Source: Rhodanobacter sp. 67-28 (GTDB lineage: Bacteria; Pseudomonadota; Gammaproteobacteria; Xanthomonadales; Rhodanobacteraceae). From it: a stretch of DNA of 64,000 nucleotides. Location of the stretch: NCBI GenBank assembly GCA_001898415.1, contig MKTU01000026.1:64376-128375 (forward strand), written 5' to 3'. Of the stretch, positions 7,773-60,548 are shown piece by piece; position 1 is the stretch's first letter, and the number at the start of each line of letters is the position of its first letter. The position numbers were made by a program, and so were the translations under genes. The notes under the pieces were generated by a model, which worked only from the letters and a program-made list of their open reading frames with translations, searched no databases and was not told the origin of the DNA.

Positions 7773-8588
7773 TCACAACTGCAGCAGCCACAAGCCGGCG
7801 GCGAAAATGGGCAGTGCCGCGAACACGCTGTCCAGTCGATCCATCAGGCCGCCATGGCCGGGAAAGATGCTGCCCGAATCCTTCACCTGGGCATGCCGCT
7901 TGAGCAGGCTCTCGAACAGGTCGCCGACGATAGAAATGGACACGGTGGCCGCCGCCAGCAGCGCCAGCGCCAGCAACCGCACATCACGCACGTCGAGCAG
8001 CCAGGCGCCGACCAGCGCCAGCAGCACGCCGGCGACCAGCGCGCCGTAGGCGCCGGCCCAGGTCTTGCCCGGGCTGATATGCGGCGCCAGCTTGCGCTTG
8101 CCGAAGGCGCGGCCGGCGGCGTAGGCGCCGATGTCCGAGGCCCACACGATCATCAGCGCCAGCAAGGTCCACCACGGGCCGTGCGGCGAGTGGCCATGGA
8201 TGCCGACCAGGGCGACCCAGGCCGGAAAGATCACGAATGCGCCGGCCAGCAGTTTCAGCGCGGTGTTGTCGCGCGTGGGCGCGGCGGCGAACGCGAAGTG
8301 GCGCAGCCACAGGCAGGCCACCAGCCACCATGCCACGCCAGCGACCAGCAGCCAGTCGAGCCACGCGCTGTCGCGCGCCAGCCAGAGCAGCACGAACACG
8401 CCGGCGGCCACGATCAGCAAGGCCACCCGGGCACGGCCATGCAGGCCGCTCAGCTGGGCCCACTCCCCCCATGCCGCCAGGAAAGCCACGGCCACGATCG
8501 CGCCGAAGACGCCGGTCGGCGGCAGCAGGACGATCAGGATCGCCAGCGGCGCGAGCACCAGGGCGGTGAGAATGCGCTGAAGCAGCAT
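7773..8588 (-). CDS. cdsA: Phosphatidate cytidylyltransferase
   Basis: CdsA makes CDP-diacylglycerol from CTP and phosphatidic acid, the branch point of phospholipid synthesis, at the inner membrane. The 271-aa protein is mostly membrane helices (starting [18 protein letters not shown]) and ends with the family signature: SPGKTWAG, then [17 protein letters not shown] and [12 protein letters not shown] with the metal-binding Asp. An AGAGGA ribosome site lies just before ATG 8588. The leader also carries a 164-bp inverted-repeat element (8600-8763), so the uppS-cdsA junction has been interrupted by a repeat while gene order is kept. Confidence 0.96.
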
Positions 8589-8599
8589 GGAAATCCTCT

Positions 8600-8763
8600 A
8601 GGAGCGTGGGCGGTAGAAACCAAGGGAGCGAGGCAAAGCGATTTTGAGTCAGGTTTTTTCGATCGTTTGAGGAAGATAGCCGTAGCTATCTGACGAGAAG
8701 GAGCGGAAAAGCTGGCCAAAAGCGCGAAGCCATAGCCCCTTGGTTTCTATCGCCCACGCTCCT
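8600..8763. repeat. 164-bp element with 27-bp terminal inverted repeats
   Basis: The left end 8600-8626 (starting AGGAGCGTGGGCGG) and right end 8737-8763 are complementary over 27 bp with one mismatch. The interior includes a small palindrome GATAGC-CGTA-GCTATC (8675-8690). No transposase is encoded, so it resembles a MITE or REP-type element. It fills the gap between uppS and cdsA, and the uppS stop codon (8747-8749) lies within the right terminal repeat. Transcribed in the operon, it should fold into a long hairpin. Confidence 0.8.
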
Positions 8764-9502
8764 GGGGGGCAGGGGCCAGCTGCGCGCTGGTGCGGCCGTA
8801 GCGGCGCTCGCGCGAAGCGTAGTCGGCGATGGCCTCGCGCAGGCAAGCCTGGTCGAAATCGGGCCACAACGTGTCGGTAAAGTACAGCTCGGCGTAGGCG
8901 ACCTGCCACAACAGGAAGTTGCTGATGCGGCGTTCGCCGCCGGTGCGGATGAACAGGTCCAGCGGCGGCAGCTCGGCCAGGCTCATCCACTGGCCCAGCC
9001 GTGATTCGTCGATCTCGTCGGCGCGCAACTCGCCGCGCGCGACCGCGCCGGCAGCGTGGCGACAGGCCTGCACGATGTCCCAGCGGCCGCCGTAACTCAC
9101 CGCGATATTCAGTTGCAGCGCCGCGTTGCCGGCGGTGCGGTCCGTCGCCGCGCGCATGCGCTGGCGCAGCGGCTCGTCGAAGCTGTCCAGGTCGCCGATG
9201 AAGCGCAGGCGCACGCCGTGGCCGTGCAGTTCCTCCACCTCTTTGTCCAGCGCGCGCACGAACAGGTTCATCAGCGCGCTGACCTCGTCCTGCGGGCGCT
9301 GCCAGTTTTCGCTGGAGAAGGCGAACAGGGTCAGCACCGGCACGCCTTCGCGCAGGCAGGCTTCGATCACCTCGCGCACCGCGCGGCGCCCGGCGTTGTG
9401 GCCGAAGCTGCGCGGACGGTGCCGGGCACGGGCCCAGCGCCCGTTGCCGTCCATCACGATGGCGACATGGCGGGGAACCCGGGCAGCCGTGGCGGCCGGC
9501 AT
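8747..9502 (-). CDS. uppS: Undecaprenyl diphosphate synthase (cis-prenyltransferase)
   Basis: UppS adds eight isopentenyl units to farnesyl diphosphate to make the C55 lipid carrier for peptidoglycan and O-antigen. The 251-aa protein has the catalytic Asp in HVAIVMDGNGRWA, then GHNAGRRAVRE, LTLFAFSSENWQRP and DLFIRTGGERRISNFLLWQ, all standard cis-prenyltransferase motifs. ATG 9502 leaves a short lead of about 12 residues. frr ends upstream at 9520. The last few codons (QERGR and stop) lie in the terminal repeat of the 8600-8763 element, so the extreme C-terminus is probably not ancestral. Confidence 0.97.
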   Translation of the reverse strand: MPAATAARVPRHVAIVMDGNGRWARARHRPRSFGHNAGRRAVREVIEACLREGVPVLTLFAFSSENWQRPQDEVSALMNLFVRALDKEVEELHGHGVRLRFIGDLDSFDEPLRQRMRAATDRTAGNAALQLNIAVSYGGRWDIVQACRHAAGAVARGELRADEIDESRLGQWMSLAELPPLDLFIRTGGERRISNFLLWQVAYAELYFTDTLWPDFDQACLREAIADYASRERRYGRTSAQLAPAPQERGR

Positions 9503-13568: not shown

Positions 13569-13718
13569 GGGTGTCGCTCCGATTGTCGGTTCCCTCGAGA
13601 AGGAACCTGGGGGTTGGGACCTCCACGCATCCCCGGCTTCGACCGCGACTGGCCCGATTTTGACGGTGGGCGAGGCGCGGCACCCCGAAGGCGGTGCCGA
13701 TGCGTGTGTGGCGTTGGT

Positions 13719-13747
13719 TTGGGTGTTGTACCGCTGGGCGTTACAAT
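13719..13747 (+). promoter_or_regulatory. Candidate map promoter
   Basis: TTGGGT (13719-13724) and TACAAT (13742-13747) are 17 bp apart on the plus strand, about 135 bp upstream of map. The 315-bp map-rpsB gap holds this and the opposing rpsB promoter (13810-13839), so the two transcripts overlap at their 5' ends. No gene is seen in the gap. Confidence 0.45.
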
Positions 13748-25771: not shown

Positions 25772-25848
25772 CGGGGCGTAGCGCAGCCTGGTAGCGCATC
25801 TGCCTGGGGGGCAGAGGGTCGTCGGTTCGAATCCGGCCGCCCCGACCA
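25772..25848 (+). tRNA. tRNA-Pro (GGG)
   Basis: This is a 77-nt cloverleaf with encoded CCA. The acceptor CGGGGCG pairs with CGCCCCG, the D-arm is AGCGCAGCCTGGTAGCGC, and the anticodon stem TCTGC / GCAGA has loop CTGGGGG giving anticodon GGG. The T-arm has GGTTCGAATCC. A TAGAAT -10 lies at 25755-25760. It is followed by a terminator at 25856-25889. Confidence 0.97.
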
Positions 25849-60473: not shown

Positions 60474-60548
60474 GGGCGGTTAGCTCAGCGGTAGAGCACT
60501 ACCTTGACATGGTAGGGGTCACAAGTTCGATCCTTGTACCGCCCACCA
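60474..60548 (+). tRNA. tRNA-Val (GAC)
   Basis: This is a 75-nt cloverleaf with encoded CCA. The acceptor GGGCGGT pairs with ACCGCCC, the D-arm is GCTCAGCGGTAGAGC, and the anticodon stem CTACC / GGTAG has loop TTGACAT giving anticodon GAC. The T-arm has AGTTCGATCC. Its 3' end is a common integration site type, and a type VI secretion cluster begins 760 bp downstream. Confidence 0.97.

Follow-up and report, generated by a model that had tools for sequence, protein, structure and literature searches.

In this Rhodanobacter DNA the stop codon of uppS has been entered by a mobile element, and UppS is intact apart from a tail of five residues. The element is best read as a MITE, a miniature inverted-repeat element, that an IS1182-family (ISKpn6-like) transposase mobilized in trans; it landed in the CTAG containing the uppS stop and was followed later by the loss of that stop, a reading to which we give a probability of roughly nine in ten. 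The mechanism is ordinary, and the landing in a stop codon is unusually clear. As a MITE the element is of a known kind; as a family it is new so far as literature searches reach. The most interesting part is found in the arms of the family, which co-evolve, and in its ends, which seem to be exchanged.

Structure and limits of the element

The element lies in the window (the whole stretch of 64,000 nucleotides that was analyzed) between two genes of the minus strand, which we take to be uppS, the essential cell-wall gene for undecaprenyl diphosphate synthase, and cdsA, presumably encoding phosphatidate cytidylyltransferase. The features are the following.

7773–8588, minus strand: cdsA
8594–8599, minus strand: likely cdsA ribosome-binding site, AGAGGA, identical upstream of cdsA in the closest relative; putative function
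8598–8601: target duplication CTAG on the cdsA side, intact, from the sequence and the empty-site comparison
8602–8761: the MITE proper, with limits set by the unoccupied site of the closest relative and by 102 family copies
8602–8627, plus strand: terminal inverted repeat on the cdsA side, its outer part repeated in the same genome and in the genus
8674–8691: apical stem-loop of the element, from folding
8736–8761, minus strand: terminal inverted repeat on the uppS side, with one mismatch; it holds the uppS stop codon
8747–9502, minus strand: uppS, ending in QERGR and a stop inside the element
8747–8764, minus strand: tail codons CAG GAG CGT GGG CGA TAG, that is QERGR and the stop
8762–8765: target duplication on the uppS side, CTGG on the plus and CCAG on the minus strand; CTAG in the closest relative

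The first-pass annotation had described an inverted repeat with nearly complementary ends at 8600–8763. This repeat is real: 52-nt arms (8595–8646 and 8717–8768) are complementary at 77% of positions, and within them the terminal 8602–8627 pairs with 8736–8761 with a single mismatch. Comparison with the relative that lacks the element, and with the 102 family copies, refines the limits to 8602–8761, leaving a near-palindromic, non-coding element of 160 bp that runs from GAGC to GCTC. The bases just outside are the flanking CTAG on one side and its one-base variant on the other. The element was also said to lack coding capacity and to form a long hairpin as RNA, and both statements hold. It is too short for a transposase gene, and its minus (transcribed) strand folds at −84.5 kcal/mol, compared with a mean of −47.9 (sd 4.1) in shuffled sequences (z −8.85; 0 of 200 shuffles as stable). 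To the small size and the terminal inverted repeats, which characterize a MITE, can be added dispersed copies with sites that are empty in relatives, a CTAG target site duplication (one copy carrying one substitution here) and ends common to IS1182-type copies of Thioalkalivibrio, in which the left and right ends are on separate contigs. Rfam finds nothing over the element at the gathering score (the single weak hit has E 1.4 and 15.6 bits, against a cut-off of 35). Elsewhere in the window there is a match to the t44 RNA (13613–13728, minus strand), and two tRNAs are located at 25772–25845 and 60474–60545.

Empty and filled sites at the uppS-cdsA junction

By a protein search with UppS, all 45 genomes of the genus have the gene, and the best 30 loci were read, that of the present genome included. 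The element is missing at 29 of the 29 other junctions read (the best 29 of the 44 found), where 2–10 nt lie between the stop of uppS and the start of cdsA, compared with 158 nt here. The closest relative is R. lindaniclasticus (UppS 97% and CdsA 94% identical), whose junction reads ...GCC CCC TAG AGGATTTCC ATG, the flanks being joined with one CTAG that overlaps the uppS stop. Removal of 8602–8761 and of one CTAG from the window restores the junction of this relative: the two are identical over the 11 nt before and the 97 nt after the CTAG, with two differences in the 60 nt preceding it.

According to the first-pass annotation, the element supplies the last uppS codons and the stop, and its insertion replaced the end of the gene. 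The former is correct, the stop codon (8747–8749) being located within the repeat; the latter has to be given up. The comparison of UppS C-termini that had been proposed gives ...QLAPAP in the closest relative and QLAPAP followed by QERGR here, all residues of the relative being retained. The end of uppS has therefore been extended rather than replaced, since QLAPAP is kept, the CTAG of the stop codon is duplicated and the change from TAG to CAG adds QERGR. The insertion probably came first and the loss of the stop later, because the CTAG is intact on the other side and the relative has TAG.

The events may have proceeded as follows. A transposase would have inserted the element where the stop codon of uppS formed part of a CTAG, and this CTAG would have been duplicated. 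The copy on the cdsA side would have preserved the likely ribosome-binding site of cdsA, which lay beside the old stop, and the copy on the uppS side would have kept the stop at first and then changed from TAG to CAG. Translation of UppS would from then on continue for five codons into the repeat and end at an in-repeat TAG, and the mRNA would have gained a long hairpin between two genes once tightly spaced. The tight spacing of uppS and cdsA is lost here and an effect of the element on cdsA expression is possible; the accessibility of the cdsA ribosome-binding site, as predicted with and without the element, shows mixed differences.

Together, the empty and filled sites show the near-harmless entry of a mobile element into an essential operon. 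The harm is small because the target CTAG holds the stop and is duplicated, so that both the stop upstream and the likely ribosome-binding site downstream are kept.

A dispersed family in beta- and gammaproteobacteria

Matches to the whole element occur in 21 of the 60 genomes searched (the present one included), mostly within the genus. In the present genome, the 20-bp end has 15 matches, which make seven pairs and one single end, and the reversed-pattern control has none. Across the genus, the end with up to three mismatches has 298 matches in 31 of 45 genomes, four of them with a single match, compared with 11 control matches in 11 genomes. One genome (G012) has 64 terminal-repeat matches, a burst of a variant end, several of them near contig ends. 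When named genomes are scanned for a degenerate version of the end, at least 115 stretches come up, some being single ends. The hosts among the matches listed are Rhodanobacter, Luteimonas, Stenotrophomonas, Solimonas, Sinimarinibacterium, Thioalkalivibrio, Rubrivivax, Ideonella, Ramlibacter, Pseudorhodoferax, Variovorax and others. Seventeen loci from outside the named-genome set match loci of named genomes along more than 1,500 bases, 16 of them at 100% and one at 97%; many of the matched records are Rhodanobacter, R. lindaniclasticus, R. spathiphylli and R. fulvus included, which identifies the genus. Related ends occur in the genus and in other beta- and gammaproteobacteria. The plasmid and phage collections, searched with the element, gave no match.

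The 102 distinct paired elements, some of which are orthologous insertions (for example L008/L009, L015/L016 and L011/L032) and so not fully independent, fall into size classes: 68 measure 158–161 bp, 6 measure 184–186 bp, 3 measure 212 bp and 13 measure 266–267 bp, the other 12 lying within 48–203 bp. Searches of the open-access literature found no paper on miniature inverted-repeat elements of Rhodanobacter, and among the top matches, judged by titles and the openings of abstracts, there was no MITE linked to IS1182 or ISKpn6 and no CTAG or stop-codon family.

Target CTAG and stop-codon landings

Among the 204 flanks of the 102 elements, 114 are CTAG, 34 CCAG and 14 CTGG, and 38 elements have CTAG on both sides. 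The excess of CCAG over CTGG has p 0.006 on the assumption of independent flanks, and very-short-patch repair would be expected to yield CCAGG. The flanking TAG is the stop of a called gene (a simple ORF and GC3 rule, not annotation) in 41 of the 102 elements, drawn also from 3-kb loci beyond the named-genome set, compared with 27 of 212 other CTAG sites, which come from the named-genome loci alone (854 kb) and from a slightly different version of the gene caller (Fisher p 1.4e-7; 27 of 135, p 0.0008, without the 77 intragenic sites). The called starts are unreliable, as 30 of 88 fall within the element or on its far side.

Of the 102 elements, 2 are intragenic by the same rule. The tetranucleotide is scarce, with 10 CTAG observed in the window where about 50 are expected from trinucleotides. 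Elements would thus settle at gene ends because CTAG is rare and because insertions that spoil genes are lost. In the present genome an HNH endonuclease gene also ends at an element, and 44 of the 45 genomes possess this gene; at the 30 loci read, the element is present in two of the five orthologues that end in CTAG and in none of the 25 that end otherwise. At the same HNH endonuclease stop codon, two genomes (loci L241 and L249) carry elements with differing interiors, and these landings are apparently independent.

Seven of the 107 called gene 3' ends that face an element run into it, and all seven stop 12 or 15 nt inside. The tails are QERGR in three cases (uppS and both neighbors of one Solimonas element), QEPGR in one and variants in the other three. 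A conserved spare stop within the repeat was considered and rejected, as the in-repeat place reads TAG in just 91 of 204 ends and CAG in 101. Landings of this kind later add short tails to proteins, repeatedly and with the same residues, and in annotation such tails would pass as ordinary protein ends.

The probable transposase partner

The family members have the look of passengers that depend on an insertion sequence of IS1182 type, whose transposase is the likely source of their mobility. In Thioalkalivibrio ALJ17, such an end with CTAG is found upstream of a gene starting MPTTYRPYNPDQ..., and a matching end with CTAG downstream of a transposase-like C-terminus (of 8 left-type and 9 right-type matches in Thioalkalivibrio, 4 and 3 were read). 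The two ends, which lie on separate contigs, presumably belong to one element. Similar gene starts are found beside such ends in Pseudomarimonas and in a betaproteobacterial MAG, and where the end GGAGCSTGGGCGGYAGAAAY is seen beside a transposase gene at the loci examined, the gene is of IS1182 type, in three source genomes.

The 81-residue fragment from Thioalkalivibrio matches Pfam DUF772 at a score below the cut-off only; among its best plasmid matches are two annotated IS1182 family and ISKpn6. In the plasmid copies of Halomonas and Marinobacter, CTAG and the two ends are all present, although the repeat differs at a few positions. The corresponding sequence of ISKpn6 is CTAGGAGCCTGCGCGGCAGAAG, and DUF772 and DDE_Tnp_1 are both found in ISKpn6 and in a decayed copy from Rhodanobacter. 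Relatives of the transposase fragment occur in 8 of the 45 genus genomes, a close one (80%) in a single genome, and this close copy has decayed, its left end being truncated and its frame broken. Among the matches listed for the genus, the widely spaced pairs of terminal repeats expected around an autonomous copy include none that is intact and one decayed copy. The present genome, a draft of 82 contigs from which a copy may be missing, yielded no intact IS1182 partner bearing such ends. The one IS1182-type gene of this genome (L235, contig C74, 54000–56500) was rejected as the partner: it is 43% identical, frame-broken and devoid of such ends. We infer the partner from its ends, not from seeing it at work.

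Alternative explanations

How well does the insertion of an IS1182-driven MITE compare with other explanations? A fixed local structure or terminator at uppS-cdsA, with no mobility involved, would agree with a position exactly in the gene junction. However, the 29 junctions read in relatives are all empty and related copies are dispersed over other loci, which is what the first-pass annotation had claimed in speaking of an inserted element and the opposite of the outcome that it had set against its own claim (the same sequence in all relatives, no copies elsewhere). Moreover, 8500–8900 contains no promoter-like or terminator-like site (terminator count 0, compared with 0.4 in shuffles), the G+C-rich stem and T run of an intrinsic terminator included, and the chance that the structure is a fixed one is close to nil. 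The transposase could alternatively belong to another family that duplicates CTAG, of IS5 or IS630 type. IS630 prefers CTAG. MITEPsy1, which duplicates CTAG or YTAA, is ascribed to ISPsy2, labeled "IS5?" (PMC3189936). Such a partner is nevertheless very unlikely, given the IS1182-type genes found next to GGAGCSTGGGCGGYAGAAAY at the loci examined and given that, within the genus, the transposase gene with such an end is a decayed IS1182-type copy.

More has to be said about a role of the hairpin itself. It is conceivable, although unlikely, that the element has been kept as an RNA hairpin that regulates the operon, either by uncoupling the translation of uppS and cdsA or by offering a cut for RNase III that sets their ratio. 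The very stable fold and the widened gap between the genes would suit such a role, and a precedent exists in Neisseria, where RNase III has been proposed to act on NEMIS transcripts (PMC2229807). The arms also co-vary. In an alignment of 62 elements (the 150–162-bp members of the main cluster, of the 102), the consensus hairpin has 45 pairs, 30 of them changed on both sides; with the structure taken from the same alignment and kinship ignored, 94.2% of cells are paired compared with 74.5% in shuffles, double-change pairs number 30 compared with 25.0, and 0 of 500 shuffles reach either value. When the partner is shifted by one to three columns, pairing falls to 34–49%. Folding is strand-specific as well, one strand folding better in 59 of the 62 elements (mean −101.3 vs. 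−84.9 kcal/mol). However, this preference holds whichever way transcription runs, both orientations are seen (16 and 19 elements), and here the transcribed strand is the less stable one. The selection at the RNA level that co-variation suggests also finds no support in the flaws of the hairpin, among which G-U should be commoner than A-C under such selection: on the transcribed strand of 35 elements between co-directional called genes, there are 58 G-U and 75 A-C mismatches, or 30 and 45 once three fixed G-U columns are removed, so that no preference for G-U is seen. Counted in the family's own orientation, the numbers are 155 G-U and 74 A-C, or 58 and 72 without the three fixed columns. Finally, among the 30 junctions read the insertion at uppS-cdsA is unique to the present genome, and long-term maintenance at this site is thus not supported. 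A warning follows for palindromic mobile elements in general, in which co-variation of the arms need not imply a functional RNA.

Co-evolving arms and apparently exchangeable ends

Correction of one arm by the other, or a constraint at the DNA level, fits the hairpin better than selection on the mRNA. Elements of 186 bp (L135, L176, L177, L202 and L206) carry, by eye, a 26-bp segment in one arm, which can be either arm, and those of 212 bp (L139, L152 and L216) carry it in both arms, where the two segments are fully complementary in one element and partly so in two. Copying from arm to arm within the hairpin would explain both the co-variation and the paired 26-bp segments; the strand asymmetry is left unaccounted for by it. 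Other subfamilies have a stem of differing sequence at about the position of the apical stem-loop (by eye).

The ends, too, can change. Fourteen loci of G059 (L298–L311; other family of the same order) share the core and have other ends, CAGCCTGTCGGACTT. Both ends are present at 11 of the 14, 10 of these 11 being 159–162 bp long, and in most cases the flanks are CTAG or differ from it by one base. Similar sequence to the CAGCCTGTCGGACTT ends precedes another gene of IS1182 type (L236). With differing ends on a shared core in G059, core and ends can therefore part company. It may tentatively be proposed, as a picture that we hold to be less probable than not, that the elements form a long-lived non-autonomous lineage that inherits its hairpin rather than its sequence, in which the arms copy-correct each other, the ends are exchanged for different IS1182 transposases and CTAG stops serve as safe landing sites.

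Comparison with known systems

The YPAL (RU-2) repeats of Yersinia and relatives sit close to stop codons. They are palindromic, dispersed and about 168 bp long, and in one RU-2 case four residues, ERMG, were added to the C-terminus of a protein (PMC2759123). Their description includes internal repeats, duplications of 3–26 bp and insertion at sites of dyad symmetry or adjacent to them (PMC2229807). The element analyzed here is of another type, with long terminal repeats and always a 4-bp, CTAG-like duplication.

The Correia (NEMIS) elements of Neisseria have a repeat sequence that probably differs from that of the element. They are similar in size (about 107 or 155 bp), in their 24-bp terminal repeats and in forming a long RNA hairpin, and they have a TA at their termini (PMC2229807); a TA lies within the CTAG that flanks the element here. 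MITEPsy1 of Pseudomonas syringae is likewise a small MITE that duplicates CTAG or YTAA, with mobility shown, and differs in its length of 100 nt, its 18-nt ends and its ascription to ISPsy2 (PMC3189936).

The ISKpn6-like group is alike in its ends, CTAGGAGCCTG(G/C)GCGG..., and in having CTAG on both sides; its members measure about 1.5–1.6 kb and contain a transposase gene, in contrast to the 160 bp here that contain none. IS1272 of Staphylococcus belongs to the IS1182 family, the same transposase family as the putative partner. Three new insertions of IS1272 are reported, two of them 15 and 66 bp beyond the end of a gene and the third at a gene 3' end (PMC5678879). Differently from the element in uppS, IS1272 is described as replacing an inverted repeat without target duplication (PMC5678879), whereas here the CTAG is duplicated and nothing is lost.
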